A stretch of DNA of 64,000 nucleotides from Prochilodus magdalenae. Taxonomy: Eukaryota; Chordata; Actinopteri; Characiformes; Prochilodontidae. The stretch's first letter is position 1. The number at the start of each line of letters is the position of its first letter. The translations under genes were made by a program, and so were the position numbers. Location of the stretch: positions 1-64,000 of the forward strand of contig JAMWET010001256.1 in the NCBI GenBank assembly GCA_024036415.1, read 5' to 3'. Positions 19,875-53,700 of this stretch are shown here, one piece after another. The notes under the pieces are model-generated. The model was not told the DNA's origin, did no database searches, and saw nothing but the letters and a program-made list of their open reading frames with translations.

Positions 19875-22800
19875 CATATATACAGGGGTTGGACAATGAA
19901 ACTGAAACACCTGGTTTTAGACCACAATCATTTATTAGTATGGTGTAGGGCCTCCTTTTGCGGCCAATACAGCGTCATTTGGGCAGCCGTGGTTTTATGT
20001 TTTTTGGATACACTCCGGGTTAGCACCCGAACATCCCTCTCAGACAGCTTCCTCTTGCGTCCACAGGTAATCCTGTTGGATGTGGTTCGTCCTTCTTGGT
20101 GGTATGCTGACATTACCTTGGATACCGTGGCTCTTGATACATCACAAAGACTTGCTGTCTTGGTCACAGATGAGCCAGCAGGACGTGCACCAACAATTTG
20201 TCCTCTGTTGAACTCTGGTATGTCACCCATAATGCTGTGTGCATTGCAATATTTTGAGCAGAACTGTGCTCTTACCTGCTAACTGAACCTTCACACTCTG
20301 CTCTTACTGGTGCAATGTGCAATTAATGAAGATTGGCCACTAGGCTGGTCCAATTTAGCCATGAAACCTCCCACACTAAAATGACAGTAAAATGACTAAA
20401 ATTTCAGTTTCATTGTCCAACCCCTGTACATACATACATACATACATACATACATACATACATACATGTTCAAAGAAAAAACATGCATCTCTAAAATTGT
20501 TACTTCATAGAAGAAGGCAAAAAATGTCTTGTCATTTAAGTAAAGAGATTTTATTTTAAGCATATTAAAGTATTCTATTGGTCCATTAATCATAAAAGGG
20601 CATATGGATAAGGGCATAATGCTACACTCGACTAATGTTATGAAAAAGACATTTGCATTACTACAACATATCACCTACTGTCTGTTAATTCTGGATTTCC
20701 TTTTAGGTTCATCAGCTTTGGAATTGACGGGCCATAAACATCAGCATCTAACAGTCCCACTCGCTTATTCTGCAGAAAGGAGTAGAGAAGAAAACAAGAC
20801 GATGCATAGTGTTTATAAGACATGCTGCACGCTTATTGCAATATGGGTGATGCTGAGGGTGTTTCTTTGTTACCTGATCATTCGCCAAAATGCCAAGAGC
20901 AAGATTCACTGCAAAGAGACACAAAGGTGTGTAAACAAAACACGTGCATGTCCACATTAAATCAGCCAGGCTTTGGGATCGTCACCAACAGATCTGGGAA
21001 GTATTTCATCAGACCAGGTTCAAAGTAGTGTCAAGAATCAGATCATCTGCAATAAAGTCTGAAATTGCACAATGCTCAAGGGGAAGACAGTAAATCCTGC
21101 CCTGTTGCAACTTTGTCATATGATTTCCTACATGACAACAGCAGGCTTCTATAAGAGCCATACTAAAGCAAAGAGTCATAACTGTTATTCAGCCTGAGAT
21201 TAGTTTGTGAACTTGGACTGTTGTGTATCATAGTAATATGAGGGGTGACTCGTTTGATTGAGGGAGATAACAGAACTCTAAGTTTCTCCTAGATGGCTGG
21301 CATTGGAATGAGGAACATTGAGAAGGTAGGAAGGTGGTGAGAACTGCAAACCTTTGTCACAGAAACAGAAAGAAGAAAAAGAAAAAGAATTTACAGCACA
21401 TGAGATTGGCAGGAGGGGTCTCGTGGATAGTCCTCCTTGCAAATATCATTTACATATTTCTGCAATTATTCCATAACATAATAATACATAATAATATCCC
21501 ACATAAATAAACTGTAGTTTAAATAATCAGTAACAGTGTAATGTCAACAACCCTCTGTTCATTTTATGCTTTGTTAGGATTCCAAGCATTGGTCTGTTGC
21601 TTTGTGCACTTGCAGGCACACTTCCTTGTCCCATATCAAATTTCAAGGTCATTATAAACAAAGGTTTCTCAGCTAAATATCTGAAGTGTTGTCAGAATGC
21701 TCTATTTTAAAAGGGTAACAGTACCATCTTCCTCTCTCCCTCTTATGCAGTGGATCCAAAACCTGTGATGTGGTGTACAACCCAACTGACTTAACAATAA
21801 CATTGGCAGGTCAAAAAAGATGGGCATAAACAACATCTGCTGCAGCCTTCTTTCAGAATGAAAATGTACACAGTGTGGTCCAATATGTGGTCAACCCTCC
21901 TAATTATGAGTTTATGAAACTGGTTTCCATGCCTCATCAGCTTCACACAAGCTTAAGATCACCAAGCGCAATACCAACTGGGAGCGCTGTGTAGCACACT
22001 CCCGTTGGACTCTGGAGCAGTGGAAATATGTTCTTTGGAGTGATGAATCAGCTTTACTATCTGAAAGCTTGACGGATGAAAGCGGTTTTGGCAGATGCCA
22101 GAAGAATGCTACCTTCCAGAATGTAGAGTGGCAAAAGTAAAGTTTGGTGGGGGCGGGAAATGGTCTGGTTTTGGTTTTGGGTGTTTGGGTTCCATGGCTC
22201 CTGTGAAAGCTAAGGTTAATGCTACAGATACAAATATATATCACAGTTATGTTCCAAATTTGTGTCAACAGGTTTGGGGAAGAACCTTATCTGCTCCAGC
22301 ACAACTGTAGCCCAGTGCACAAAGCAAGGCCCATAAAGATACACTGCAATGTAAATTCTGAGCCAGACCTTTTTGTCCAACATCAATCCCTGACCTGATA
22401 AATGCTCTTCTGACTGAATGAGCAGAAATTCCCACAGACACATTCCAAAATATTGTGGAAAGACTTCCCAGAAGAGTAGGTGCTATTACAGCAGGAAAGA
22501 TATTACTACCCATGGTTTAGGAATGGGATGTCTGAACAAGTTGATATAAATGATGACTAGAACTCCACATACTTGGTCGTATGGTGTATCTTGAACAAAA
22601 AACAGGCTCTGTTTGATAAGGACAAGTGAAGGTTACCTGCTGTTGTAGACTTTCCAACACCTCCTTTTCCTGAAGCAACAACGATGACCTCTTTAACACC
22701 TGCTATGGGTTTTTGTTTGGGTAGGCCTCGTGCCATATGTGCCTTCTGCCTTTCCTGCAGTGCTCTCTCACCTGAAGACTAAAAAGCAAAAAACACATGA

Positions 22801-24502
22801 CTAACTGTAGACCAGAAACATCAGCACCAACAAAAAGTTCAGGCCTGAGAAAGTATTCTGGAACTGTAGTGTCTGTTAGTACAAATTAAACTGGCGCAAA
22901 GCTTTCAAATTACTGCTAGAAGTGAAGAAACTATGGACGAGCATTGTCAAAAGTCCATCATGCCAACACATTAGTCCACAGCAAGTGGATAACGTTGCTG
23001 TTGTGAAAACTGATGACCTGTTATCAAAAATGGATGTTGGCTCAGAAAGAAAGGGATGATTTTGGGAATGACATTTTTTAGAAAAAGGCCATGTACATGT
23101 ACATTGATTCTTTGCTTTCAAACCAACTTATTTTCAAACTGCTGAGTACAATATTCGGATTGCAGGAGCTGCAATTTTATATATAGGATATTTAAATCAA
23201 AGCTGTATCTTACATGGGTAACGTTAACACAGTAGCAGGACTTGTAAACTGCCTGTAGATGAGTTAGACCCATCAGAGGCAGCCAAACAACAATATGCTG
23301 TAACATTACAACCACTGTAATTGAGAAAGGGAATGCTCTTGGCTTACTGACCAAATAACGGGCCTGAACTTCATTTCACAGAAAAAAAAAAATGCCATTT
23401 AAATCGCAGTCACAATACTGATAAGAACAATCACAATTATTCTTCCCCAATAATGCATGCTGTAAGGCAAAATAGTTCATCCCCATAAAATTTACATTTT
23501 AACTATTATAGTATTGTCATTGCTACATACATGTTTAGATGATTCTTCAAGGGTTCAGTAACCAAGAAAATAGTTCTATATATAATCATAAACACTTAAA
23601 GAACAATCTGCATGATTAACATGTTCTTTACAACAAGAAAAGGCTCTGTGTGATTTTTGTTAAAGGGTTCTGCCACTGTTATAATAAAAAAGCTTGCAAA
23701 ACTATTTTAATATTGTTATTACCAAAAAAAGAACCCTTATAGGACAGTCTTTTTAAAGTGTGGATATAAACTCAGCGGATATATGTAAGTTCACTTGTTT
23801 GGATAGCATAAAACAAACAAACAAACAAACAAACAAACAAACAAACGGCTGGGCAACATGACAATATGCCTATTATGATAAATCATACCACAATGTGCTT
23901 GAACATCAGTATTTGACCAACTGATCTCCCGCATGCTTTCATTATGAAGAGAAAAATGTGAGACCCACTGAACTGGATTACACATACTAAATACATACTG
24001 AATAAAAATCAGTATGTATGATATTATTTTGGAAATATAGCACTCTATAGTATATTTGGCTCTCTCTGTTCCAAATGATCAGGTGCCTGAAAGCATATTG
24101 TGGCATAGGCATCGTGAAATTCTGCTAACGTATTGCTAATTGTATTTGCCATACCGATCACCTCTACTAGATTAGACATGGCGACCGCTGGTTCCCATCA
24201 TCTGCACTGTAAAGTAATCTGAATCACTACAACCAACCACTACACACCAAACCCCAAGTGCTGAATAAAGTTGTTTACATCTGAACGACTGGATGAGTTC
24301 AAAAATCTCAGTTAAACCGGTGGAGTTCCCCTTTAATTACTGACAGCAGAGAGAATCCTGATCTCACCTTAAAGCGAACATCATTACAGACCACTGTAAC
24401 CGCTCCACTATGTCGGTTACTAGACCATAAGACAGCGGCAGCCCTAGCCGAGGCGCGCTTACAGACGTGAGCGAACTTCCTGCAGCTGTAATACAGTAGC
24501 AT
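16553..24502 (-). CDS. nubpl: NUBPL, mitochondrial Fe-S P-loop NTPase (complex I assembly)
   Basis: Mrp/Nbp35-family P-loop ATPase that delivers 4Fe-4S clusters to respiratory complex I in the mitochondrial matrix. Coding exons in transcript order (minus strand): 24368-24502, 22637-22778, 20874-20908, 20679-20769, 19748-19787, 19413-19503, 19112-19205, 18684-18769, 18175-18295, 17214-17296, 16553-16615. They total 981 nt, 326 aa, near the human length (about 319). Visible landmarks are the deviant Walker [12 protein letters not shown] (residues 81-91), DADVYGPS, a [11 protein letters not shown]alker B-region block and the cluster-binding CPQC pair (C251, C254). The first 40 residues are Arg/Ala-rich with few acidic residues, fitting a mitochondrial presequence. 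The start is ATG at 24502; the frame extends upstream only with a TTG. For exon 4 I chose the GTAGGT donor because it keeps the NLMRPL frame. Introns hold several transposon relics. It diverges from dtd2 across a 371-bp promoter. Confidence 0.97.
17690..17945. repeat. 48-bp minisatellite in a nubpl intron
   Basis: A CACT/CACC-rich unit of 48 bp (for example the copy beginning near 17772: CCTATAAACC ... CTCACCCA) repeats about four to five times inside the intron between exons 10 and 9 of nubpl. Degenerate related sequence extends left to about 17600. The 136-aa open frame through it (Thr/Tyr/Pro-rich) is a translation of the repeat. Confidence 0.85.
19800..19880. repeat. (TACA)n microsatellite, left part
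   Basis: The clearest ATAC/TATG tandem repeat runs about 19848-19880 and continues on the other side of the transposon at 20427-20466. The element therefore landed inside one microsatellite. Confidence 0.85.
19883..20426 (-). mobile_element. Internally deleted Tc1/mariner element, HTH domain only
   Basis: It has perfect 25-bp terminal inverted repeats: 19883-19907 (beginning CAGGGGTTGGACAATGAA) and 20402-20426 as its exact complement. TA target duplications lie on both sides (19881-19882, 20427-20428). The minus strand holds a 100-aa open frame (19928-20230) whose start matches the N-terminal helix-turn-helix of Tc1 transposases: [19 protein letters not shown], then [15 protein letters not shown] and [10 protein letters not shown]. 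The catalytic DDE domain is absent, so it is non-autonomous. It sits in the nubpl intron between exons 4 and 5. Perfect inverted repeats suggest a fairly young insertion. Confidence 0.9.
20427..20466. repeat. (TACA)n microsatellite, right part
   Basis: About ten TACA units directly follow the right end of the Tc1-derived element, continuing the microsatellite present on its left side. Confidence 0.9.
21867..22588 (+). pseudogene. Decayed Tc1/mariner copy in nubpl intron 2
   Basis: The ends are imperfect inverted repeats: TACACAGTGTGGTCCAATAT at the left and, at the right, the complement of ATACTTGGTCGTATGGTGTA ending near 22588. The interior keeps eroded transposase sequence in the plus orientation, such as the VLWSDES-like stretch near 22030 and a CACAAAGCAAGGCCCATAAA block near 22318. 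The frame is broken many times and about half the usual length is missing. It runs opposite to nubpl transcription. Confidence 0.8.
23540..23760. repeat. Possible non-autonomous DNA element (MITE-like)
   Basis: AT-rich segment in nubpl intron 1 with GGTTCAGTAACC and AAAGAACCCTT-type motifs that recall short fish MITEs. No clear terminal repeat pair could be fixed by eye, so this is a weak call. Confidence 0.25.
23808..23846. repeat. (AAAC)n microsatellite
   Basis: About nine tandem AAAC units inside nubpl intron 1. Confidence 0.95.
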
Positions 24503-24873
24503 GTTTATAACCTCCAAACGCTCAGCAGCTCAGCAGCTACCAGCAGGGAACGCTGTCATTTACAGGAACACAGACTCGGGCCGGCCAGCTGCGCAAACTC
24601 ATCTCCTAACATCGCCTTCTGACTATCACGTGTTAAAGAAAATTAAAGCATTTACTGAAAATAAAAAGTCCGCATAAAACAAAACCTGCAACTAAACCCG
24701 TCGCAGCTCCCCGAGGTGCAGGACGTGGCCACTTTTGATGACGTAGTAACACGGAAAAGACGCCAGCAATCTTTGAAAGCCTGTTTGTTTAAAGGAGGCT
24801 GCAAATGAGTTTGGTTCTTAGGTTAAATTGTTAGGTCCTTGTCAGCTGTCAGCATTGATGCGGTTTCTACATA
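24503..24873. promoter_or_regulatory. Divergent promoter between nubpl and dtd2
   Basis: Only 371 bp separate the nubpl ATG (minus, 24502) from the dtd2 ATG (plus, 24874). Sequence is moderately CpG-rich and has no TATA box. It contains a palindromic E-box CACGTG (24627-24632) and a CRE/ATF-like TGACGTAG (24739-24746). This arrangement is typical of bidirectional housekeeping promoters. Transcription start sites cannot be fixed from sequence. Confidence 0.7.
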
Positions 24874-26553
24874 ATGACGGCGGCAAACGGATCCTCAGTC
24901 AGCGCTCGGGCGGTCCTTCAGCAGTGTCTGCACGCCAGACTGCAGGTCAGACCTCCTGAAGAGGACTGTGAGGCCCAGTGGGTCGAGGTATACTTCATAC
25001 TTGTCTTTTCAAGTCTGAATATGGGGCACCTTTTCAGAAGTAAAAATAAAGTCAAATAAAACTGAACTAAAGTAAAAAAAAAAAAAAAAAAAAAGTACAG
25101 ATAGAAGCTATAAAACTGTTTAATGTGTAATTTTACTTATTATTAAAAACATTGGACTAATAAAATGGGAAATCAGAAATATGAAATGTTCAAAGGGGCA
25201 ATATGTAAGTTTAAACTTTATAATTTTAACTGAAATAATCAGCAGAATGGTAAGAAAGAACTGTTTTGATGATGTGTCAAAGACTTCTATGTATCGTGCT
25301 GTAGAGATATCTATAGGAGTTAGCATGCTAACCAGTTAGTCCCGACCCATCCTGTCGTGCAATACAGTTAGTCATTGTACTGTCTGTTTGGATCAGTCTC
25401 GCATGAAAGGATGAAGAAGTAGTACTGACTGTTTCCTAGCCTCTTGTTGAATGTTCTGCTCTCAGATCTTTTAAGGACATGTAGACAATGAAAGGAAGAG
25501 TAAATGTATGGTGGTGAATATGCTGCTGGATTTATGAGATAATTTTATATTAATTTTAAAATCCATTAATGGTAGAGAGTTACATGTGGGGCACTGTAAG
25601 TTAAAAAAGTGATTAAAAAAAGCTCTTTCAGTATTATCAGCATGCTTGTTGTGGTTATTCTGGATGGCAAATGAAATGCCAAAGCTTGATTGTTCGGCGG
25701 GCAAATTGAGCCACCTTTCTCCTGCATCTGCATTTGTAATCCACATCACATGCATAGCCACAGCATCCCATACATGGATGTGTCTAGACACACGAATACG
25801 ATCTTTGCAAATAACAATTTGTGCAGATGTCTCAAAAGATGTGATTTGAGAAACAAATCTGACTTACCTGCAGTCTGAGAACAGCCTTAAGCTTTGTTCA
25901 GACTACCAGCCCAGATCTTATGTTTGGATTATATGCACGTGGATTTATTGATTGTCACACTAAATCTGATCAGATCCAAAACGGATGCCTATAGCAGAGT
26001 GGACAGTCATCTCAAAAGATCTGATTTAAAAAACAAATCTAATTTGTGTTTTGATGCTCGTTTGTCCCCACAGATTAACCGAGGAATGGTTATCTACATC
26101 TGCTTCTACAAAGGTGCAACTGAAGAAATCATCCCTAAAATGGGTATGACTCTTGTGAAGGAGAATGGTTTGTGTTTAAACACTGCATACAGACTAACTG
26201 TTTTAATTTCCTCTTGCTTCCTTTTAGTGAACACCCTTCTAAACATGAAGCTCAGTGAGACAGATTCTGGAAAATACACTTCAGTCCTTGAGCTACCTGG
26301 CAGTATCCTCATCGTGCCTCAAGCCACACTGGGAGGAAAACCAAAGGGTAGAGGCATGCAGTACCATGGCAACATTGGCAAAGAGGATGGGCAGAAGCTC
26401 TATGCCAGCTTCGTCTCCCACTGTGAGAAGGAACTAAATTCGGCTGTCAAGTGTAATGAAGCTGGGACAGAAGTGAAACATGGAACATACGGTAACAGAC
26501 AAGTCCTGAAGCTGGATACAAATGGACCCTATACTCATTTAATGGAGTTTTAA
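24874..26553 (+). CDS. dtd2: DTD2 / animal tRNA deacylase
   Basis: Small cytosolic proofreading deacylase of the DTD-like fold. From the literature I recall, the animal form (ATD) removes L-Ala mischarged on tRNA-Thr. Three coding exons: 24874-24987, 26074-26143, 26228-26553, total 510 nt, 169 aa, against about 168 in human. Both signature motifs I recall for ATD are intact: PQATL at residues 92-96 and TNGPYTH at 159-165. The first exon (residues 1-38) carries the conserved [13 protein letters not shown] helix. ATG 24874 is the first in frame and matches the family start. A longer frame through 25894-26553 is exon 3 plus exon 2 read through introns. Intron 1 holds dispersed repeats. An AATAAA lies at 26644. 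Confidence 0.97.
25074..25094. repeat. Poly-A run in dtd2 intron 1
   Basis: About 20 consecutive A residues after an AAATAAAACTGAACTAAAGT segment. It could be the tail of a retroposed fragment, but no head could be identified. Confidence 0.6.
25290..25360. repeat. Dispersed repeat containing TTAGCATGCTAACCAG
   Basis: The GATATCTAT...GTTAGCATGCTAACCAGTTAGTC segment in dtd2 intron 1 recurs at about 37360-37395, just downstream of the second DTD2 domain (GTTAGCATGCTAACCAGCTAGTC). Both lie on the plus strand. Confidence 0.6.
25815..26048. repeat. Locally duplicated MITE-like segment in dtd2 intron 1
   Basis: Two similar about 40-bp blocks, CTCAAAAGATGTGATTTGAG near 25830 and CTCAAAAGATCTGATTTAAA near 26012, lie about 180 bp apart in the same orientation with a TTCAGACTACCAGCCCAGAT motif between them. 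This looks like nested or duplicated short interspersed elements. Family unknown. Confidence 0.45.
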
Positions 26554-26649: not shown

Positions 26650-28037
26650 TCTTTCCTATATTTGGTTAATTTCTATGTCGTTTCATGTGGCTTGACATTT
26701 TATGCTTCTTGAACATATGATGCTGTATAAGTGATTACAAAATGTATGTCAGAGAACACTGTTCACTTGTAGAAATGGCAACAAAGATACAAGAACTAGT
26801 AAATCACATGGAAAATAAATAAACATTTGAAAAGAAAAGAGCATGGAGACTGTTATAACTTTCCATTCAGAAACTTTTTATTGAAAACGTATTATGTAAT
26901 TTTACCCACATGGGCATGGAAATGTATGTTTATATCTATATATGCAGCTTTGATGGATGGAATTACTAGGAAAAACAACATTGACCACCCAGTGGCAATT
27001 CTGGAGTCTTTTGGGGCCATCCAACCAGCGTTTATCTCCATAATGTTATAAATAATTGCACTCCAAAACCACCTCATTTTGTATTTTGACCTTGATGTCC
27101 TGGTCATCAGTTAAAACAGCACTAGATAGGTAATTAAGGTAGATGCCCTTTTAATAAAGAGGACACTAGAGAGTTGATTATTATGATTATTTATCATGGT
27201 AAGCTGCTATTTTATGTATATATTGTCGCAGTAATCTTCAGTGTATCTTCATGATTATAACAGGGAGCGTGTCAATTTAAACGTATAGTAATAAAGCTAA
27301 TCTTCAAACTGTTCTGTGGAGAGGTTCGCGTTAATTTCGCTAGCTCGGGGAACTTTTATTTTGACAAACATCAGGAGGAAGTGACGTAGGGGCTCTGTAA
27401 AATTCCGTCGTCGATTTTTCTTGCTGCATACTTTCTCAAACAATCTACATACTTTACTCTTCAACACTTTATTCAAACGCTAAAAAAATAAGTACGACAG
27501 TTAGTTAAGGTTATTATTTTAGATCGTTATTTAGAAAATTGATGGAGTCGGTAAACACGCAGGATTATAGAGGAATTTCTGGAGAACGTGATGTACTGCA
27601 AAAAATCGTTCCCCTTTAGAAATGTGTCCTGCTGATGTATGTTAACGTTGGATCCGCTGCGCCTGCACTTCCACAAAATCAAATGATATTAACGCTAATA
27701 TTTTAAGTCGACACTCGCGTTGAAGAATCTGAGGAGGTACGTTGTTAAAACAGAAGTTAATTTAAGTTGGGAGTTGTGTTTTGAGCTGGTTGTATAGGAG
27801 TGGTAGGTGTTTGTCCGTTACTAACTTTCAGCAACCTGTAGGTGGGTAGGTGACTGAAACCTGTGTCACAGGTTGGTATGGGTTAAATCGTCTTTGCCTT
27901 AAAATGCACTTTAATTATGAATCTTGTCTGATTCAGAACAATAATGATGTTAGACCACTTTACAACTTCACTGTTCATCACCTCCTAATACACAAAAAGC
28001 AGATTTTAAATTAACACTAACTTCTTATAGGTAAAGG
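26650..28037 (+). promoter_or_regulatory. Intergenic with probable promoter and 5' UTR of the chimeric gene
   Basis: CpG-containing sequence around 27300-27740 includes a CRE/ATF-like TGACGTAG (27382-27389), the same octamer as in the nubpl/dtd2 promoter. A good splice donor (GAG followed by GTACGT) near 27737 could end a non-coding first exon, spliced to the acceptor at 28029-28030 just before the start codon at 28038. No coding exon was found here. Confidence 0.5.
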
Positions 28038-28809
28038 ATGAGCTTCAGCAAGTTTGATGAAGTTGAGAAGTACCTTCGATTCGGCACATATACACAACAC
28101 GACAAAGCTTCTAAAGGCGTATTAAGAAGGTCCAGTAAGAAGTTTCGTTGGGCAGGTGAGTGGCCAAATTTCAAATGAGTAAATTGCTCCTCAACTCAAC
28201 CACAGTAAATAATTTTTCCCTTAGGTGGTGTTTTGTGGTACATTGATGGCAAACGTCAACGTAAGGTGCTCCGCAGCGAAGAGGAGGTGAGAGCAGTCCT
28301 GGTGGAACAGCATAACAACCGAAATCATGCAGGCCGCAAGAGGTGCCTGAAAGCCGTGTCTGATCTTTACTACTGGCGCTCCATATCTAAAGACATCACT
28401 GAGTGGATAGACAATTGCGAGGGTTGTTCTCATCCATCCAATCCAGTCATACGTTTACAGTGCATTGTCCCTGGCTGTGAGAGCTCTGGACTGGTTGAGG
28501 ATGAAGATGAGGTCACTTTTCACCGGTACGGATGACCCCAGGTTTACCTGTGTTTGTGGCTAATTTTGAACTCCTATTTAGAATGAATGCTGGACTTCAG
28601 TTTAATTTATCAACAGGTTCCCTTTTGGCGAGCCAGGCAGACTCAACTGTTGGATCAGCTTCGCTCAGAGGGACCGCTGGTCCATCCACAGCAGATCGGC
28701 TATATGTTCCAAACACTTTACAGAGGACAGCTTTGAACAAAGTGGAGACAGAGTTTGCCTTAAATCTGACGCTGTGCCAACGCTTCAGACATCTGCATGT
28801 TCAGAGGAA
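28038..28809 (+). other. Module 1: KxD-helix, HHCC and THAP finger (3 exons)
   Basis: Exon 1 encodes a SKFDEVEKYL segment and a basic RRSSKKFRW stretch like the region before integrase zinc domains. Exon 2 carries H69, H74, C104, C107 and the first THAP ligands C119 and C124. Exon 3 completes THAP: P142, W152, C170, H173 (CSKHF) and the terminal AVPTL. All THAP hallmarks are present, including 45 residues between the two ligand pairs. The exon 3 donor GTCAGT is non-optimal but gives phase 0, matching the start of module 2. Confidence 0.82.
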
Positions 28810-31800
28810 GTCAGTGGAAATTAATACCTGTCATTTTGTCATTTGCTGAGTTTCATATATGCTGGTATATTACGCACACTACGCACAAGTCTCAGGCTCC
28901 CACAAAACACACTGTACAAAACACACACTGTAAGTCATTTATGCAACTACAAATCAGTCAGTAAACAGAATATTTTATGAAATTGCATCAGAAGATTTAT
29001 TAAATAAGGGATTGGCTGAGGGAGGCCCTGCATGGTAACTGTTAATATTTCCTAAATAGGAAGGGACCACCACAGGACAACCACTCAGTAGTGACAGCAA
29101 AATAACACAAGTGTAGCCTTTTCATGGTTTCATGATGTTTGATGATTCATTTCAGTTAATAATTTACTTGTTAAAAACAATTTTATGTTAACTGAATACA
29201 GCTATAAACCTAAAATAAGACAAACTGGGCGATTGTGATTATGAAAAAATTATGACTGGCCTAGTGTATCAGTCTGTGGTCCTATAGCGGTCCTGTTTCA
29301 TTGTTGGACAGAGTAGAAGGTGGCTGATGCGGTTTGCACCACCAGATGGGCTACAATGAGTAACTGTATGGTATGTGTACATTATGAATGTAGCTATAGG
29401 GGCGATGTAACTGATAAATTGGCAGCATTGTGAAGATAAGTAATCCCATATTATCTTGGGAGAATGTTCAGTAGTATCACCTCTAAAATTGTGCTTGTGC
29501 CATTTTTAACAGTTTGTTATTGAAACAGGTCAGTGATGAATGCTGGGTTGGTGTTTCTGTGGAATCTATGGAGGATGAGCACCCATCAGTAGATGAGGAT
29601 TTGGTCCACATGGAGCATCCATATTCCAAAGGTCATACTGTGCAGACCAGCCCCCTACTGATCTCCACATCAGAGCCTTATTTCAGAAAATATGATGCCT
29701 TGGAGAAATTCCTGCGTACGGGTGTATACAGCAGTATGCCCTACTGCAGGAGAGACGCTGTAAAGAGATGTGCCAAACGTTTCTGCCTGCAAGGTAAGCT
29801 CATTGTTTTTATTCCTTAAGATGAGCTCGTTGCAAGCTCAAAGTCACCTTTGCCTGACAGTAGGAAAGAAAGTAATCAGTCCCCGGTTGTATTATACTGG
29901 TATAATTGCAGGGGATCGTGCAATGATGTTAGACCCACTAGCAATTTCTGCACAATTTGTGTAAACAATTATGCCATTCTAGAGCAACACACCGTTTCAA
30001 AATTGTTTACTGTGGTGGTGATAGGAACCAGACATCTGAAATGTTTCATGACTCTAACAGCTACTGTACATAAAGATATTAAATGAAATGTTTATAAATG
30101 TGCTGCCTGATGTTTGAGGCCTGTCCATCACCACCATTGTAATCTACTTTCTCTGTGACAACGAAGATCACTTGAACTAAATCTTTATGGGGTGTTTTAA
30201 GCCAAATTAATGTAGTATTTTACCAACTTTAGAAGTTTTAGAAGACGTGTTGATTGGATGTTTAGGATAGTAAATGGCTGTATTTTTAAAATATTTTATT
30301 TTTATGTGTTTAAAACAAAAAGAGTCTCTACAATGTGTTATACGTTTCAAGTATTGTATTATGCAGATTTTGTATGCGGCATTAAGTGCAATACAATGCA
30401 TGGTTTTGACAAAAAAGAGATGTAGTGTTTGTGCAAGTTAGTATTTAGAATATCCTAATAAATAAAACAAGGAAGCAAAAATTAAAAACCACAGTTACTT
30501 GAAAATGATAATTATTTATTTTAATTATTTGATTTGTCAAATAATTATTTGTTATTGTCTTTTATTCTTAGATGGAGTCTTGCATTACCGCCACGGCTCC
30601 AGGCTTCGCCGAGTCCTTCGAAGCAGAGAGGAAGTCATTAGTGTGCTAAAGGAGCACCATGACAAAAGAGGACACTTTGGACTGAAAAGATGTTTGAACT
30701 CAATCTCTGAGCTTTATTACTGGGGCACTATTACCAGAGACATCGAGGAGTGGATTGGCAATTGCCGATTCTGCATGGAGAAGGACGACGCAACACAGAA
30801 GTACCGCTGTGCTGTTTACAGCTGCAATAACTATAACGGGCCTTTGGAGAGGATGCTGGGCCTGACCTTTCATCGGTGAGAATAAAGTGGCTTTAGAGTG
30901 AACTGAAATATCAGAAATATTAGTGTTTCATGTGACAAACATGACTTTTAAATATCTGCAGCATTGACCTTTTTTAGGTATCTCCATTGTTTGAACACAT
31001 CAGCTTTAATGATCACTGAACCAGTAGAAATGGTTCATACTAACTTACCACTTATTTGCTGTAATTTATCTGATTTAGCGTTTAGCATTTAGCATACTGA
31101 TTTAAGTAACAACATTTCATTTCAGTGATAATTCAGTAAAAAAAACTTGTTGCTCTATAATTACAAGGTTAACATAGATCCAGGTATTGGAGCTTGGCAT
31201 TGTTAATATTATTTGTCCCATACACTGATGCACAGTAATCAGAACTCAGAAGATATTTTATGGTGTTACACTTTGATAGAAGGTTACAGAAAAACAGGAA
31301 TCTGTCTTTTAATGGTATGATATACTAACATTTAACATTACCAGGGACATGGACTAATGACTCCCAAAGTGGGGATGCTTGGCATAAGCTGATTTGCATA
31401 AAGCTGAGCCATCCACTAACATATTGTCATTAATAATATATTTATAATTTATGAAAATGTTGTGTTCTCTTAAAGGGCCTGTATTTATAAAATGTTTCCT
31501 TTACCCTGAGAACCACTTGTAGTGAGTGGAAGGGTCCATGTACCAAATACAGTCATAATTTGCAATATTTGCATGTGTTTACATACTATATCAAATGTTC
31601 TTTCATTAAACGAAATGATAGTGGCCCTTTAATGCTGGTTGTACCAGTATGCCTGTAACTAACACTAGAATTCATTTTGTTTTGATAGTTTTCCTTTTGA
31701 TGAGCCGGAACGCCTTAATCAGTGGATCAGAAACTTGCGCAGAGTGAACTGGCAGCCGCGGCCCAGATCTGTTGTTTGTTCCACTCACTTTACAGAAGAC

Positions 31801-33429
31801 TGTTTTGACCACTCAGGAGGGTCTGTTTGCCTCAAGTCTCACGCAGCACCCACTCTACTACTCTGCACCACACAGGTAGTTCACTGGTAGTATTTACTGT
31901 GCATCGCCTTTTTATTGTTGTTTTGAATTTGGAATGGAGTCAAGTACCATACTAGTATCATACCAGTCAATGTAGACTACATAGTCTCTCTTTCTTCACA
32001 GGAAGCTGAAGGTGAAGATTCCACTTATGGATTGGATGACAAAAGTGTTTCTTGTGAGGTGCAGGATGATTTGAGTACGCAGCATGCGTTTTTCTCCAAA
32101 TATGATGCTATAGAGAAATATCTGAATGGAAAAGGCTATCCAACAGGATTGACCTCTGTGGAAAAGAACACTTTCAGGAGACTCTGCTCCAGATTTGCTA
32201 TCCATGGTGAGTCATTTAGCCTCCTGTTCTCTGACCTCGCAGCTGGCAGTATTCAGCAGCATATGAATTGACTGAAATGACACTGACTACTGACTTTGGG
32301 GTAATATTCTTAATGTGTAGATGGTTTTCTAGACATTAAACTTAACCATGGACTGGGCAATGCCATAGTCAACTGAAAATGAATTTGTTACTCTAGGCTT
32401 ATGTTACTCTAATGCTTTTACTGAGGGAAGGAGGTTGTTCAAATCTTGTGATACATGACCCTATCCATCCTCCCTTCAATACGGTGCAGTCATCTTGTCC
32501 CCTTTGCAGAAAAGCACCCCCAAAGTATGATGTTTCCACTACAATGTGATTTTTTTTGGATTTTTTTTTACCTACGATAAAAAATTACAGACCTCAGATG
32601 GGCATAACTAAGCTTCTTATTACTGCCACTGTTAAAAAAAAAAACAAGAGTTGGTAACTTTCCCCATAATGAGCCGTTTCTTATTTGCCTAGATTTGTTT
32701 ATATCTCAGTTTTATATGCAGGGTTTGAAAATTCTTGAAATTCCCCTTTAAGAGAACTAAAAGCTATGTTCCATTTAGGTGCTATGGATTCACTGTGGAC
32801 TAAATTCGTCTGTTGGGTTAATTTCAGATGGCTTCCTCTTTTACACTTCGGGGAGAGGCATTCAGGAGCATGGGAGGCGCAGAGTCCTCAGGAGCAAAGA
32901 GGAGGTGCAGTCCACGCTTACCGTGTATCATGATGACATGAACCACCTTGCATTTGAGAAGTGCTTGAAGCTCATCTCCAGACATTTCTTCTGGGGCTCT
33001 TTGAAGGCAGACATAGCAATGTGGATTCAACGCTGCCTCCAGTGTTCAAGCTCTGAAGAACCTGGCATAGAGCCTTGTGCTAGTCCAGGAAGCCCTGAGG
33101 TCACTGAACTTTTGGAGCCCTTGGAGGTTCAATACAGGTTGGCGTTGATTTAAAAGAAAATGTTTCGTCCCTTTGCATTAAGTTTTGTCGATCATTCCAG
33201 AAACATTTACTTAGCATTTACTTTACAGTTTCGCAGTGAAATGAATGGTTAATGTAGCAATCAAGTAATAAAAGCTTATATGTGTTTACCCTGCTGTTCT
33301 ATAAAATCTGGCAAAATTATGGAAAACTTCAGGCTTTGGCTGCTACTAAAGTTTTTAGCTGTGCAACATTATTTTACCTTTGTATTTATTTTGTATAAAC
33401 TTACGTATTACAAATACAACAATACTAAT

Positions 33430-33462
<33 letters not shown>

Positions 33463-35001
33463 TTAAATGACTAATTCTACAGAATTTTAGACTGTACATA
33501 TTGGTTTAGCTCAGTTCTCAACTTTTGGTTGGTCCCAGAATCATAAACTGGGAGAAATAATTAAAAAATTACCATGTGAAATGTATTAGGTCCAACACAT
33601 GGATCGTTCGTCATCCTTGAATGGTCAAAAACTATTTAACTTTAAAATTGGTAAAAAAAAAAAAAATGTTAAGTTTCTGGGGAACTTTTCTGTGATGCAC
33701 GTTCTGCTCATGGGGCCCTTAATGTTCTTGTTCACATTTGATGCTGTTTCAGTTGTGTGGCCATACTCATATTCCATATGTGTTATTTGTTACTGAACTA
33801 GATTAACTTTATCTGCTTTAGTTTGGCATTGGCCGGCCAGGGGAACGGGACAATGGCAACCGAACATGACCTGAATCTCTCCGTCTCAGAGGTGGCTGTG
33901 GAGCAGTGTCTGATCAGCTCTATGCCCAAGAGTCTCCATCCATGTCATCCTGATAGGAACACGACTGATGGAACAGTTATCATAAGAACGGACTTGGTAA
34001 CAAGGTATACAACTGTGTCTTATTAAGAACTTGTTTGATACATTGTTATACATGATTTAATATTAGTCATACAAATCCTTATGCCAGTGTGATGATGTTT
34101 ATGAAGTCAGTTGTTTGTAATACAGTACATGTTATTAATAATATATAAAAATAAAGCTAAAGGTTTGTGTGTGTTAAGCTACTAAAAACTATGAGAATAC
34201 TTTCTTACATGATCGTTTCCAAAGTTTTCTATATCCCTAAACATCTCTTTTTGCTACTGTACCTTTAGACTCATATATGTAAAACACATCAGGTACACAC
34301 AACGACGGCGCCCTGTTCGACTGCGGCTGCTATGGTTCCTGAGTATCGGAGATTTCATGGCTTATAACTCAAATTCACACAGATTCACAGCGAAACCACA
34401 GCGCATACATTTTAAATCAGTATACGACCCTCGGGAGATACTGGATTTAAGAGGATTGAATAATTTGGAATACATACATATGTTTACATATGCACTACAC
34501 TTTGCACTACATTGTACTTTGCACTTTCTCCCCAATCTACTCTGAGCCAGTGCGACGTGATTTCATTCTAATCTGCACTGTACGGTGTAAATTTGAATGA
34601 CAAAGTCAGTCAGAGTCTAAGGTCTAAGTATGTTGATCTCTTGTTGTAACTGTGTTGTGGAGCATGTATAATGCAGTGTGTACTGATACCATACTTATAA
34701 CTTCAGCCTCAATGGGTGGAGATAAACTGCTGTAGGTTTACTTTTTTTTTTTTATTTTGCCCCCCCCCCCTTTATCGGAGGACTTTTATGCCTTTGTTAT
34801 TTATTACATTGTTCCCATTGTGTCCAATGAGGAGAGGGTAGTACATATAGCATACAGATAAGGTTAGATAACACAAAAGAAAGATGAGACCTAGATAAAC
34901 AGCATTGATATCAAAACAAGAGAAAGACTAACAAATCAAGAAAAGGAAAGAAAAGGGGACAAATGCATAATATATATATATATATATATATAACAGCAAT
35001 G

Positions 35002-35040
<39 letters not shown>

Positions 35041-36822
35041 GCCACTTGTGTGTGTGTGTGTGTGTGTGTGCCTGTGTGTATGTGTGTGTGAATGTATGTA
35101 TAAATGTGATGGGATGGAGTTTTTCTTAGGTGGTGTATTGGCTCTGGGGGGGGTGGAGTTGTATATAGCATAGAAGTAGTTCAGAAGTTACTGTAGGGCT
35201 TGTATTAGAGATGATCAATTTGTGTTGGTGTTTTTGTGGTTGATTGATTCAGATGACTTCTCCATTGATATATAGTCTAAACTAAATCTGCTGTAGGTTG
35301 AGTGGGCAGGTATATGTTAATATATTGTTTTTTGTTACATCAGGCAAAATGTCATTTACATTATATTATTCTTTTTCTTTATACTAGTTCCAGTGGTTCT
35401 CGTCAGCCGCCTGAAGACTTAGCGCAGGAGCGGAGGACCTGCAACTTGAGTGCGAGGACTGTGGTTCAGCAGTGCACCCATGCCTTACTGCAGGTTAAGC
35501 CTCAAGTAGCTGATACTGATTCTGAATGGGTGGAGGTATTTTACACACTTCCTTCTGCATCTCTGTGTTTTTTTAAGTGGGTTGATGTTATGAGCATGAG
35601 TTATGGGGTAATACATTTCGCAGGTTTTTTTAATCTCTTCAGAACTCATCCAGAAGTCATTCACAGAGCAATTTAGTGTGAAATTACTAATTATAAAGAC
35701 ATTGGTGGTAATAGATCACGGTGCCAACATTGTAAACATGGCCAAAAACATAAGTGAAGTCCTCTGGGTTTTTATATGTGATGTTGACAATGGTACAATA
35801 GTAGGACATATGGAACAATGTTGTCTTTCTGTGGGGACTCTACCATTCGGCCATGAATATGTATGAATGACTTGACAATGTGTTTTAGGCAAGAGTTTTA
35901 CCACAGTCATAAAACAGTCTCAGGCATCAGTTTGCCTAGAAATGAGCATCTATGTTGTGTCTGTTTTGTTATTTTAAACCATCAACATGACAACATGTGT
36001 CACAGACTCAGACTGATGAGAAAAGTTGCTGTGATTGTGCCTTGTTTACAGATTCATGAGGGAATGGTGATCTATGTGTGCTTTTATAAAGGCGCTACTG
36101 AGAAAATCATTCCAAAAATGGGTAAGTATTAAGTAAGCTCAAGCTAACGAGTAATAATGTATGCCAGGGCACTTTTGAATTAGCTTATTATTACGTGGTA
36201 TGTTTTATATTTATTTACTCCTTAGAACTGCAGTATTTTATGTTTCAGGTGATTATGATGTTTATTTTTAGTATATATACAATCTAGAAGACAATATCTG
36301 CATTGTACCTCCGAAGTATTTTATATGCCTCTATGATCAAGTAATTGGACTGTGTACAGTTTTATCTACTTGTTCTAGAACCGTTGAAAGTATCAGCATA
36401 CTACTGTAGATTACTGCTTTTACTGAATGTTCATGCTTGACATCTCTCTTAATGCACTTCATGCAGTAATGTTGATCTGTGTTCTAAATCCCACAGTGAA
36501 CTCTTTGCTCAACGCAAAGTTCTTCCCAACAAGCAACGGTAGGTGTCTATCTGTCCTGGAGCTTCCGGGAAGCGTGCTGATCGTTCCCCAAGACACCATG
36601 ACCGGGGTGATGAAAGGCAGTCGAGTGCAGCACAATGACGCTGTGGAGCGCTGGAAAGGCCTCCACCTGTACAAGGGCTTTGTCTCTCTGTGCGAGAAGG
36701 AGATGGCTGCGTCCACAAAGTGCTCTGAGGCTGGGACAGTCGTCAGACACGGAGTGTACGGAAACATGCAAGCGATATACCTTAACAGCAATGGACCGCT
36801 CACTCATGTAATGGAGTTTTGA
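28038..36822 (+). CDS. Chimeric protein: (integrase HHCC zinc module + THAP)n fused to a DTD2 domain
   Basis: Predicted coding exons: 28038-28155, 28225-28525, 28617-28809, 29529-29793, 30572-30875, 31689-31875, 32002-32206, 32828-33137, 33822-34004, 35388-35535, 36052-36121, 36497-36822; 2610 nt, about 869 aa. Every junction has GT-AG sites and compatible phase. Domains: HHCC zinc-binding modules resembling the N-terminal domain of Gypsy/GIN-type integrases at residues 69-107, 322-360 and 559-597 (each HX4HX29CX2C); THAP C2CH fingers at about 119-190 and 372-445; a DTD2 domain at about 705-869. No integrase DDE core is present. Inference: a domesticated, transposon-derived DNA- or RNA-binding array joined to a duplicated tRNA deacylase. 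The weakest point is the join between exons 9 and 10. I do not recognise a named gene; function is unknown. Confidence 0.75.
29529..31875 (+). other. Module 2: KxD-helix, HHCC and THAP finger (3 exons)
   Basis: Same architecture and exon phases as module 1. The first exon has an acidic linker and then RKYDALEKFL. The second has HHCC ligands H322, H327, C357, C360 and THAP C372, C377. The third has RFPFDEPERL, W406, C424, H427 (CSTHF) and AAPTL. All zinc ligands are intact, so both fingers probably fold. Confidence 0.85.
32002..34004 (+). other. Module 3: HHCC intact, THAP degenerated
   Basis: The first exon has SKYDAIEKYL. The second keeps H559, H564, C594 and C597. The THAP half has lost its pattern: only one Cys (in EPCASPGS) remains of the first pair. 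The third exon (33822-34004) starts in the same phase as the THAP exons of modules 1 and 2 and is of similar length (183 nt against 193 and 187), but has no C-x2-H, no AVPTL and no family tryptophan. It ends in phase 2 and links to the DTD2 part. Confidence 0.7.
33423..33462. repeat. (AAT)n microsatellite
   Basis: About twelve AAT/TAA units in the intron between exons 8 and 9 of the chimeric gene. Confidence 0.95.
34150..34155 (+). terminator. Possible intronic polyadenylation signal
   Basis: AATAAA located 124 bases past the in-frame TAA (34024-34026) that would be read if the exon 9 donor were not used. Use of this site would end a transcript that codes for the zinc modules without the DTD2 domain. 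Confidence 0.4.
34290..34640. other. Unrecognised segment in the fusion intron
   Basis: Sequence of higher GC than its surroundings (starting near 34300) with a 62-aa open frame and a TTTGCACTACA-rich end. It could be a transposon fragment; no family recognised. It lies between the zinc-module exons and the DTD2 exons. Confidence 0.3.
34970..35100. repeat. Compound (AT)n-(ATA)n-(GT)n microsatellite
   Basis: An AT run (about 34971-34992), an AAT/ATA run (35003-35041) and a GT run (35047-35092) follow each other in the intron just before the DTD2 exons. Confidence 0.93.
35388..36822 (+). other. Second DTD2 domain (three exons, part of the chimeric gene)
   Basis: Exons 35388-35535, 36052-36121 and 36497-36822. 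The last two are exactly as long (70 and 326 nt) as exons 2 and 3 of upstream dtd2, with the same phases, showing a tandem duplication. The first exon aligns with dtd2 exon 1 (NLSARTVVQQC against [11 protein letters not shown]) but extends 16 or so residues further upstream and contains no methionine, so it needs an upstream exon. Signature motifs differ from intact ATD: PQDTM for PQATL and SNGPLTH for TNGPYTH. The domain is otherwise full length without breaks, which argues for selection and against a pseudogene. Confidence 0.88.
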
Positions 36823-36912: not shown

Positions 36913-36918
36913 AATAAA
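36913..36918 (+). terminator. Polyadenylation signal of the chimeric gene
   Basis: AATAAA located 91 bases after the stop codon at 36822, the same distance as the AATAAA after upstream dtd2, consistent with duplication of the 3' end. Confidence 0.7.
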
Positions 36919-49364: not shown

Positions 49365-50560
49365 CAACCAGAAATCATGTGCCTTTTAAGTATTTAAAAG
49401 CAGATCGTGTGTCAGTGATGGAAGATATTTGAACACTAACCTCGCTTATGGATTTTTTTTTTAATTTGACAGCTATTTCTGTGGAATTTCAGAACTTCTG
49501 TCCCTTTTCAAAAATTTTGTGTCACTGAATATATGATGTGTTATGGAGTCTAGAGAACTAGGAACAAATAGCAATATCATTTGGTTTGTTTACATAGCTG
49601 GATTGATATCAAGTGGATTATTGTACATCACTGTAAAGAATAAATATTTTTTACAAGAGTTTCCTATTCCTGTTGTTTTCTGATTGGTTCATTACTTTGT
49701 AGGATTGCATGAAACTTTTTACCACCTGTTTTTTTAACAACATTTTGGAAGTGGAATATTTTTTCCTTCTTGCTTTATATAGGATTTTAGCTGCTTTGTG
49801 TGTGTGTGTGTGTGTGTGTGCGTGTGTGTGTGTGCAGTACAGCTAGAACCCAACCTTCTGTTCCTAACTAAGAACCTGCTGAACATGTGGAGATGCTGAT
49901 TTAAGAAGACACTGGCGAGGTCTCTTATTTATTTCCATAGCTGTATGTTGTTCCAAAACCTGACCTGACTATATCTCTGACCATTAATGCTGCCCTCACT
50001 AATCACCCATGCCATGTGCCATTATGGCCCTTAAACCAACATGGATGCTGACTTTTGAACTGTGCACACATAACATGCTGGATGGTTCCTCTTATCTTTG
50101 GCCTGAAGCACGTAGCATCCATAATTGCCAAAAAGAATTTCACATTTTCTACCATATACAATAAATGGTAAAATCCACAAGTTCTTTGATATTTTGTGTT
50201 ATTCCTGAATCGGAGCACTATTTGCCTATGTAGTCTTTCAGACAAATCTTTATAATCATCTTATTGATCTGTTGCCAATTAATCTAATTAGGTGTGAGAT
50301 GCTTCCCCACTTTTTACTATTACATGATTTAACGGTATTTTGTTGATGACAAATTTATTTTGGACATAAAAATTTCATCAAAATAAACTAATTATAGGGT
50401 TTCTATTATGTATATATTTCCATATTGTACAGCATCCCAACATATAAAAACGATATGGTTTTAAACATGATAGTAATTGTCACAAAAGCTCATTCTAGAT
50501 CTAATCTTTGTATACAGAGCCGAGACTCGCATCTTAGACTTTCTGTAGTCTCGCCTGGCT
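49365..50560. other. pomt2 3' flank and intergenic
   Basis: AT-rich sequence with a (GT)n microsatellite at about 49796-49835. The 80-aa open frame at 50003-50245 (minus) has no known domain. Nothing else was recognised. Confidence 0.5.
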
Positions 50561-50599
50561 TCAATTTGTTGTTCGACGCTAATGATGATGTTCGATAAA

Positions 50600-50739
50600 A
50601 ACGTGAACCGCTCTGCTGCTAATCTGGACTTCATTTCCCAGAAGTCTTTAGGTCAAATGAGGAGGCGGGACGATTCACCTCAGTCAGTTAACATCTAACG
50701 AACGATTGGCTGAAGGAGATCACGTGTGTGGTTGTCAAG
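50600..50739 (+). promoter_or_regulatory. lin52 core promoter
   Basis: A CpG-containing, TATA-less stretch before the lin52 ATG has a TTTCCCAGAAGTC motif (50634-50646, similar to the ZNF143 site), a GGCGGGA GC/E2F-like box (50664-50670), an inverted CCAAT box (ATTGG, 50705-50709) and an E-box CACGTG (50721-50726). These are common in cell-cycle and housekeeping promoters. Site identity is by motif only. Confidence 0.55.
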
Positions 50740-53700
50740 ATGGCGTCTCCGAATGGAGGTAAAATTTAATTCCTCTCCGGTAACAAGTTTCTCTGTCGTT
50801 ATTGTTTAGATTTAATGTCAGGCGTTAGCTGTCTGGTATATTATGTGTGTGTGTACTCTTCAGTTTACGGTGTCCTGAACTCCAAAAGGAGTCGTCTTTA
50901 CTTTTTAAAAATCGACTGTCTGCGCCTATATGCGAATCTCCAGTTGCGCTAGTAGCTCCTGCTAACAAACTGTATTTACTACCAGTATGTTTACTGGCTG
51001 CTACCGTACAGCGCGGATCATGGACAGGGAGGTAGCACTCACTCTCCTCCTCCTTTTCCGGAGAGCTTTGTTTGTTGACACAGCCTTAGGTTGGAGGTAT
51101 ATCGTAGACTTGTAAACCTTTAATGGCATTTTCATGAGTATTTTCATGCTCCAGCATAATAAAAACATTGCTGTTTTACGGCGTATCTAATAACACGGCC
51201 TGGTCCCAACATGGACAAACAGGACTAAACGGCCTGGAGAACAACTGGTTCTAATTGGCATTTCGAGAATTGCTCAGGCAGCAATCCCATGTATAAGGAG
51301 ATTTCTTTTATTGCTATTATTAATTTTATTGTTATTTCTTGTATTGTTTGGTGGTAGACGTGTTCTAGCCGTTCCTGGTGTTAATTATGTGTTATACACT
51401 AGTTATAACACTTCTGACTTTAGAAACTACAGTGAGTAAAAAAGGTGGTTATGTATCTAAAACGTATCAGTTAAATGTACATTTCTAGATATAGTTTAAA
51501 TCTATTTATACATATTTAAAAATATTTTAAATATGTATAAGTCTTTTAGCCTATCCTATTAGACTCTGTGCAGTCCTCATCTTTTGGTTCACAAGTGCTG
51601 AATATTTCGGGAGCTAGTACTATTAAACTAGTTACATATGCTGATTTACCAAAAGTCATAGCATAGCAGGATGTACGTTGATTATGAAGTGGTGTTCTCT
51701 CAGGGAGCAGCTTGGGAGTGCCCGCACCTGTATAAGTTGTAGGTTATTATGTGGGAGTGAGTTTGCACATGCCCATGGAACTCTCCAGAATGCCACCAAT
51801 TCTGAACAGTTTTGGCCCGATAGCATGGTGGCTTGTCCTGCTGAAATGTGACATCATTGTGGGTGCAAATTTTCAATAAGGGCTGGGAGTGTTCACCAAG
51901 CGGTAAAACACTGGTCAGTTAAGTGTTTAGGCGGACCAGTGGACCCAACCAATGCCTTGAAAACCAGCCTGCACAGTGCCTTGTTGACACCTGCCACAAA
52001 CCCTACCATCAGCCCAAACCAAATGGTACTGTGACTCTTCAGACCACCATCTTGTTGCCAAGTCCGGTGTCATCAACCTGTATCCGATGTTGTAATGTTA
52101 ACAGAGACACTCTGGTAAATCTTCTGCTCTTATTTCTCATTGAAGCTATAGAACGTTGCACTGATTTATGGGTTGTGTGTGTGGGTCCTCCTGCATTGAA
52201 TGTAGATGTAAATTGTGCCAGAGACAATTGTCCTGTCCGTTCACACAGACAGTTATAACCAGATGCCTCCAGGCATGATCATTTAAGCACCCGTGGGCTG
52301 AAAATTTACATTGCCTTGCCATGAGCACACTCCAAACTCCTTCACAAGATAACCTTTTTCAACTTATACAGGTGTGGGGGTTCCTAAGCTGTACCCTGAG
52401 GTAACACTCCTTCATAATCAATTTACATACTTCTGTCCCATGGCTTTGAGCATGTCGGTGTAAACGATGCACTGAAAAAGAGACAAGCCTGATAAAGTTA
52501 CTAGGTTCTGTCTATATTTATTATAGTTAACACTTTTTACTATTCTTATGCTGAAGATGCTGAACTGTACCTACAGAACATCGGTTAAATCAGTGGTCCT
52601 GCAGGAGTTTACAGTTGCATAAAAATAACTCTTTATAATAAACCCTTTAAAACTGCTTTCAGACATAACACCCCACAATTTATTTATTTTTCAGGAATGA
52701 CCAGCATGTTTTAAAGAGAAGCAGGTTAATGTATATGAAGTTCTGGATGGATAAAACAATTATTTTTGAACCAGACTTGGCTCTTGTATCACAGGCTTTG
52801 TGATAAAATCGACTCCTTTAAAGATTTGTCTTGTAAAAATGGGTAATGCAGGACCCTCGACCAATTGTTTCAAAATTCTACATAATTAAGTGGTTGAGAT
52901 GCAAACTACATCATTTAAAATGATTTGATCTAAAAACATCCCAAGTCAGAATTGTTCATCGTTGTAGGAATAGGAACTAGACATCTAAAGTTTTGAAAAC
53001 TTATGTAAAAATATTAACTAAAATAATTAGATATTTGCTCATATTGTTATAGATAGCATAATAGTATTCTGATACTTCTGGCCAAAATTGGACAATATGC
53101 AGGTCACTGCAAGATAAAATAGTCCCCAAAAAAACATTTGGTGTCTCATTACATTATATACATTTCGATGCAGCAGAAATAAGAAGTGAAAATGTATCAT
53201 ACATTAATATGTCAATGTTTCTATATATCACTTTTTTAAAGTGTTAACTGAGGTATATGGCCTCATTTGTTTTATATTGTCTTGGTCCAAAACATTAGCC
53301 ACAAACCTTAAGGTTAATCTCTATTCTGACCCCAAATCCCCCCAAAAGAAACGTATAAGAAATAATTTGATAAACTGTGATGCATTCATCCATGTGAAGG
53401 TTTGGTATTTCATTAAGGAATAATTTCTGTCTTTTTCTAAGGTGAGGACTTTGAGTCCTCTTTGTTAAGCTATGAAAAGCTTGATCGCGCTTCACCTGAC
53501 CTGTGGCCAGAGCAGCGTAAGTTTTACATGGTTTGCTTCAGATATTGCCGTCTAAAATAAGATAATACATAGCAGTAGTTTATGTTGACTGTTAGAACAG
53601 AATTCTGCATTAATGTTATAAATGTGGGTTAATTCTGTTCTTCTGTGTTTAATGTTTACCTTGGACAACAGTGCCAGGGGTGTCAGAATTTGCTGCTTCT

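Follow-up and report, generated by a model that had tools for sequence, protein, structure and literature searches.

Structure and domain content of the fused gene

We analyzed a 64,000-nucleotide stretch of the Prochilodus magdalenae contig JAMWET010001256.1 (the window), in which a gene on the forward strand at positions 28038 to 36822 joins integrase-type zinc modules and THAP fingers to a tRNA deacylase-like domain (the fused gene). The model has 12 exons and 11 introns, GT-AG ends were found in 11 of 11 introns, and the 2610 coding nucleotides form a single frame of 869 amino acids plus a stop; translation of the exons bore out the structure given in a preliminary description of this DNA. 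The introns sum to about 6.2 kb in the window. The donor of exon 3 is weak (GAA/GTCAGT), and the frame downstream of it agrees with the orthologues, with a length difference of one residue. An in-frame stop at 28032 lies immediately 5′ of the ATG, and the model contains no exon of 5′ untranslated region.

In a Pfam search, the protein matched Integrase_H2C2 in three stretches (E value, 3.8e-37), THAP in two stretches (1.8e-33), and Tyr_Deacylase over the whole model (1.9e-29; positions 1 to 144 of 144). Three HX4HX29CX2C motifs are located at residues 69, 322, and 559, and two C2CH motifs of THAP type start at residues 119 and 372. The protein therefore has the zinc motif and fold of the integrase N-terminal HHCC module as well as the C2CH finger typical of THAP folds, and the three modules, two fingers, and complete DTD-fold domain described earlier were confirmed. 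Of its five Pfam matches (E values up to 1), none is to an integrase catalytic core family.

Exons 1 to 3, 4 to 6, and 7 to 8 share one layout, in which the exons are entered in phases 0, 1, and 2. Pairwise, the HHCC modules are identical at 41 to 49 of 102 to 113 aligned residues and the THAP fingers at 42 of 80, and 0 of 1000 shuffles scored as high in each of these four comparisons. From the shared layout and the similarity of the modules, it follows that a unit of three exons was copied, with the THAP finger missing from the last copy. The protein is predicted to begin with three HHCC modules (each an N-terminal extension plus a zinc motif) and two THAP fingers; a long disordered linker then leads to the DTD domain, of ATD type, at the C terminus. 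Disorder of the linker is predicted from the model of the Salminus orthologue, where the predicted local distance difference test score (pLDDT) falls below 50 at model residues 605 to 712; an alignment-free fold of the eel fused protein had a pLDDT of 40.5 and was not used. Exon 9 was also tried as a decayed second DTD exon 1 or a THAP finger, and both were rejected, since 124, 208, 667, and 998 of 1000 shuffles scored as high.

The DTD domain is of ATD type and carries changed motifs

The best matches of the fused DTD domain were to mouse ATD (Animalia-specific tRNA deacylase; 5xaq), the product of the vertebrate "DTD2" gene. We take this product to be a DTD-fold enzyme distinct from the archaeal and plant DTD2. 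The domain had previously been called DTD2; the complete DTD fold, which membership in ATD requires, was indeed present, and its type had to be corrected to ATD.

To compare the motifs, 58 fused and 121 canonical rows were aligned, using the ATD marks of Kuncha et al. (2018) and mouse numbering; P0052 to P0055 (no DTD listed), P0060 to P0062 (other THAP proteins), and P0065 to P0069 (from a second search) were left aside. In the Prochilodus fused domain, motif 1 is changed from PQATL to PQDTM. The Ala of this motif is present in 121 of 121 canonical domains and absent from 58 of 58 fused ones, where Asp or Glu takes its place in 55 of 58, while the Gln of PQ is kept in 58/58. Motif 2 reads SNGPLTH instead of TNGPYTH, with Gly-Pro retained; both residues are kept in 5/58 fused domains, namely, in Prochilodus and in four matches from three characins and from Electrophorus. 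Elopomorph rows carry Gly-Leu or Gly-Val there. Arg151 is a Met in Prochilodus and is found in only 6/58 fused versus 119/121 canonical domains. Gln16, which replaces Arg7 of DTD, is retained in Prochilodus and in 52/58 fused domains. Because two marks of ATD (PQATL and Arg151) are altered, the fused protein should not be classed with the ATD enzymes; judged from its sequence, it would rather work like a host-transposase fusion. Among the roles suggested in the preliminary description, these changes weaken the case for a deacylase tethered to nucleic acid and agree better with a fold used for binding.

The fused gene is very likely transcribed as one unit

If the locus held two genes, a zinc-module mRNA would end in intron 9, a separate mRNA would encode the DTD domain, and the joined model would be an annotation artifact. 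Certain features of intron 9 are in line with this: read-through of exon 9 reaches an in-frame stop at 34024, an AATAAA follows at 34150, and an in-frame ATG is found at 35314. Likewise, four fish proteins with THAP and H2C2 (P0052 to P0055) list no DTD domain. On the other hand, exon 10 itself is devoid of an in-frame ATG, and no CpG-rich start was found before the DTD exons (33.6 to 35.6 kb) among the 25 highest of 634 segments of 600 bases, the top of which, with an observed/expected CpG ratio of 1.29, lies just 5′ of exon 1 (27201 to 27800). Exon joins are colinear in the five orthologues inspected, with only small differences in linker length, and the DTD domains with fused partners form one clade (see below).

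The junction 34004/35388, singled out for checking in the preliminary description, falls inside the joined frame in each of P0009, P0015, and P0029. At 879, 870, and 985 residues, the three frames are carried by contigs of only 3,051, 2,933, and 3,555 bases, which leave 320 to 597 bases beyond the frame, compared with about 6.2 kb of introns in the Prochilodus gene. All three are marked "lgn," taken to mean assembled read archives, and, from the contig sizes, they look like spliced copies. Since such short contigs leave little space for introns, joined spliced mRNAs are very likely. The two-gene reading was set aside on the grounds of the short contigs, the colinear joins, and the DTD exons having no start of their own, and we consider it very improbable. 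By the gene model and the short contigs, transposon-type DNA-binding domains and a host domain thus appear within one spliced protein. As for the proteins lacking a listed DTD domain, P0052 (isoform X2) enters the first DTD exon and then stops, as would be expected of an isoform more than of a lost domain.

Conservation among fishes and origin of the fusion

Protein searches yielded 62 matches to the fused protein, 51 of which contain THAP, H2C2, and Tyr_Deacylase together. Among the other 11, four carry THAP and H2C2 only, four carry THAP, a P-transposase-like region, and Tyr_Deacylase, and three are other THAP proteins. The three-domain protein spans characins, catfishes, herrings, and perch-like fishes, so the joined frame is conserved in other species, as the earlier reading demanded. 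In Salminus brasiliensis, the same architecture recurs over the full length at 84% identity to the Prochilodus protein, and such conservation is far beyond what chance would give. A Pfam rescan of 47 of the 51 (a set without P0013, P0048 to P0050, and the elopomorphs) recovered all three families in 47/47. The type with a P-transposase-like region comes from Anguilla (twice), Albula, and Synaphobranchus, to which a second search added Megalops and Aldrovandia. Database names of the fused protein are mostly "uncharacterized protein" or "D-aminoacyl-tRNA deacylase" and in some cases "THAP domain-containing protein 1."

No fused copy was seen for cyprinids, salmonids, pikes, milkfish, Denticeps, or bonytongues in two protein searches with length and word limits; these fishes are represented by an ordinary dtd2/ATD copy. 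Adjacent locus tags are borne by the fused and ordinary genes of Megalops (MATL_G00165130/165140), of Synaphobranchus (SKAU_G00339800/339790), and of Albula (JZ751_002744/002743). For 11 species, contigs of equal size are listed for the two proteins. In Aldrovandia, they lie on separate contigs, which counts against synteny. Several fused entries were noted for Clupea harengus (P0016, P0018, and P0048, on contigs of one size) and for Coilia grayii (P0017 and P0019, with neighboring tags ACEWY4_005474/005475). By these entries, the fused gene may itself have been tandemly duplicated in both species.

A tree was then built from 75 DTD domains, comprising 31 of 57 fused homologues, 42 of 120 listed canonical proteins, and the two copies of the window. 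All 32 fused domains form one clade (100/97*), which splits into elopomorphs (100/99*) and a remainder (99/99*) that broadly follows species groups; clupeiform rows join the euteleosts weakly (93/67), and Engystomops (a frog) and Atractosteus (a gar) are placed among teleost rows. In most deep lineages, the branches of fused domains exceed the short canonical ones, with stems of 0.31 to 0.8 for elopomorphs, clupeiforms, and percomorphs. The path between Prochilodus and Salminus measures 0.13 for the fused domain versus 0.19 for the ordinary copy. Since the single fused clade includes tarpon and eel proteins, the duplication is older than the divergence between Elopomorpha and the rest of the fused lineages sampled. 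Most simply, these sequences suggest that a tandem duplicate of dtd2/ATD was joined, a single time, to an upstream THAP-bearing gene before that split. The full set of three HHCC modules and two THAP fingers was in place before the otocephalan/euteleost split.

In a THAP tree addressing whether the elopomorph finger is orthologous to those of the other teleosts, four elopomorph rows grouped with lamprey, hagfish, bowfin, an insect, and one THAP of the genome (91/91, not starred), with several long branches. Sampling for this tree included none from Aldrovandia and one each from Channa and Sebastes, and the Sebastes THAP 2 was labeled T1. No second close copy of the zinc part was found in the 1.18-Gb genome, on which ground the reading of the gene as a recent repeat copy was set aside. 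The search also revealed no element with the same HHCC-THAP composite; the best matches to the zinc part elsewhere had E values of 1.5e-7 or weaker. The nearest of them include long open frames, one of which (L024) is, by its motifs, presumably a Ty3/gypsy-type Pol.

Proposed function

With modest confidence, slightly better than even, we favor the view that this single-copy gene encodes a nuclear DNA-binding regulator in which the duplicated ATD serves mainly as a dimerizing, largely nonediting domain. The THAP fingers, of a family marked by sequence-specific DNA binding, and the HHCC modules would contact DNA and chromatin partners, and the ATD-derived domain, coming from a homodimer-forming fold, would pair two zinc arrays, much as BTB possibly does in ZBTB11-like proteins. 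Editing of L-Ala-tRNA(Thr) would be lost or minor.

The alternative of a DTD domain that remains active in deacylation, on tRNA or some other aminoacyl ester, and is brought to nuclear nucleic acid or tRNA genes by the zinc array appears unlikely. It draws on the invariant Gln of PQ, the frequent Gln16, the Gly-Pro kept in five domains, and the 0.13 path, by which the fused domain has evolved no faster than the ordinary copy between Prochilodus and Salminus; side chains may also be dispensable. These points are opposed by the loss of the motif 1 Ala in every fused domain, the rarity of Arg151 and of the intact Gly-Pro, the Gly-Leu or Gly-Val of elopomorphs, and the long deeper branches, and an ordinary ATD with intact motifs adjoins the fused gene. 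A role in genome defense, in which the HHCC and THAP parts would recognize the ends of transposons or bind the integrases of elements, with dimerization or partner recruitment left to the DTD domain, is about equally doubtful: the HHCC modules come in threes and have among their nearest matches the long open frames that include L024, but no element sharing the composite was found, and evolution among the 12 nearest orthologues is slow and orthologous, not that of an arms race, although deeper branches are faster.

A sensor role, in which mischarged tRNA or the 3′ ends of tRNA are bound but not edited and translation quality is coupled to transcription, would account for the retention of a complete fold while signature positions shift alike (Ala to Asp or Glu). 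The acidic residue in the motif 1 loop is not obviously RNA favoring, however, and we hold this to be the least probable of these three roles. Only a little more probable, and still speculative, is a broader scenario in which, before Elopomorpha and other teleosts diverged, a transposon-derived transcription factor acquired a tRNA-proofreading enzyme as its domain for pairing or sensing, and the regulator may respond to mischarged tRNA or aminoacyl ligands.

Comparison with known systems

Published work was drawn on for comparison (PMC5802732, PMC7302879, PMC4491819, PMC12262730, PMC10680173, PMC12062965, and PMC10027918). ATD deacylates L-Ala-tRNA(Thr)(G4-U69) (Kuncha et al. 2018); the fused domain sits behind zinc modules and a disordered linker and differs from ATD in PQDTM, SNGPLTH, and the Met at Arg151. 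DUE-B/DTD1 resembles the fused protein in being of DTD fold, in having a proposed role at chromatin, and in carrying an extra tail in vertebrates (preprint, PMC12262730). It differs in that this tail of 60 residues is C-terminal and not described as a zinc-finger array, and zebrafish mutants were viable. The vertebrate protein ZBTB11 has an N-terminal integrase-type zinc domain and a separate BTB, and a metal-binding residue is needed for TP53 repression (PMC12062965, citing Keightley 2017); it differs from the fused protein by having BTB where the latter has the DTD fold, and zinc fingers at the C terminus instead of THAP.

THAP7 and other host-transposase fusions are similar to the fused gene in that THAP-bearing transposase parts are joined to host sequence, and an eel fused member (P0057) bears the name THAP7-like. 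They differ in that the host partner here is a tRNA-editing enzyme and that non-elopomorph members have three HHCC modules. In known captures of transposon DNA-binding parts, the partners are usually chromatin or protein-interaction domains (KRAB, SET, and BTB). Here, the partner is a translation quality-control enzyme, retained since before the split of elopomorphs from other fused lineages, with changed signature motifs, and the gene provides a natural experiment in how an editing enzyme loses or alters its job. The changed sequence suggests that a translation enzyme has been reused, perhaps for pairing a nuclear protein. Searches of open-licence papers showed no description of zinc modules or THAP combined with a tRNA deacylase, and in two of the papers found, the word "deacylase" does not occur in the main text. 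The gene is conserved and unstudied in many fishes, and the lack of a fused copy found for carps and their kin is perhaps why it has been overlooked.

Neighboring genes and other features

The ordinary dtd2/ATD gene (24874 to 26553), encoding 169 residues, lies upstream of the fused gene. It is adjoined by NUBPL, pieces of which match the NUBPL family, and a protein-O-mannosyltransferase gene consistent with POMT2 lies beyond it. The preliminary description mentions neither this gene nor the repeated three-exon unit, nor that the fused gene already has database entries in many fishes. A PF02580 search of the genome gave four matches at three places. Two of these places are the ordinary and fused genes, and the third, on C4452, is presumably dtd1.

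Table 1. Coordinates of the fused gene, its putative signals, and the tandem dtd2/ATD paralogue in the window
Feature	Positions	Strand	Basis
Likely promoter region of fused gene, CpG rich, upstream of exon 1	27001..27900	+	CpG observed/expected
Exon 1, ATG and beginning of HHCC module 1 (residues 1-39)	28038..28155	+	exon model; CAG/GTGAGT donor
Exon 2, HHCC zinc motif 1 and THAP 1 start	28225..28525	+	exon model, Pfam, motif alignment
Exon 3, remainder of THAP 1	28617..28809	+	exon model, Pfam; weak donor
Exon 4, linker and beginning of HHCC module 2	29529..29793	+	exon model, motif alignment
Exon 5, HHCC zinc motif 2 and THAP 2 start	30572..30875	+	exon model, Pfam, motif alignment
Exon 6, remainder of THAP 2	31689..31875	+	exon model, Pfam
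Exon 7, linker and beginning of HHCC module 3	32002..32206	+	exon model, motif alignment
Exon 8, third HHCC zinc motif, without a following THAP	32828..33137	+	exon model, Pfam, motif alignment
Exon 9, portion of long linker preceding DTD domain	33822..34004	+	exon model; predicted disorder in Salminus orthologue
AATAAA in intron 9, possible poly(A) signal of DTD-less isoform	34150..34155	+	pattern only
Exon 10, first of the three DTD (ATD-like) exons, lacking an in-frame ATG	35388..35535	+	exon model
Exon 11, DTD domain	36052..36121	+	exon model, Pfam
Exon 12, remaining DTD domain and stop; PQDTM, SNGPLTH, Met at Arg151 position	36497..36822	+	exon model, motif alignment
AATAAA downstream of stop, likely poly(A) signal	36913..36918	+	pattern only
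Ordinary dtd2/ATD exon 1 (tandem paralogue)	24874..24987	+	exon model, Pfam
Ordinary dtd2/ATD exon 2	26074..26143	+	exon model
Ordinary dtd2/ATD exon 3, intact PQATL and TNGPYTH	26228..26553	+	exon model, motif alignment

NUBPL (minus strand) and the ordinary dtd2 gene (plus strand) appear to start about 400 bases apart in a CpG-rich stretch (24400 to 25100), and this arrangement makes a shared two-way promoter likely. Apparently within a NUBPL intron, positions 21900 to 22600 hold what we take to be a decayed Tc1-like transposase relic. At 19889 to 20435, the two ends of a transposon-like stretch mirror each other, and a frame on its minus strand is presumably Tc1-type helix-turn-helix-like.

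Elsewhere in the genome, two adjacent weak matches to HHCC module 3, each with two TAG and 24% identity, were noted at G000:C3589:783120-785173 and may represent a relic or a distant paralogue. THAP domains are very numerous: 150 of 643 candidates were scored, and the top eight loci are near-identical copies. The window further contains a UnaL2 LINE (long interspersed nuclear element) 3′ element on the minus strand at 1165 to 1218 (58.4 bits) and, at 50101 to 51300, a CpG-rich stretch without an assigned gene (observed/expected up to 1.04).
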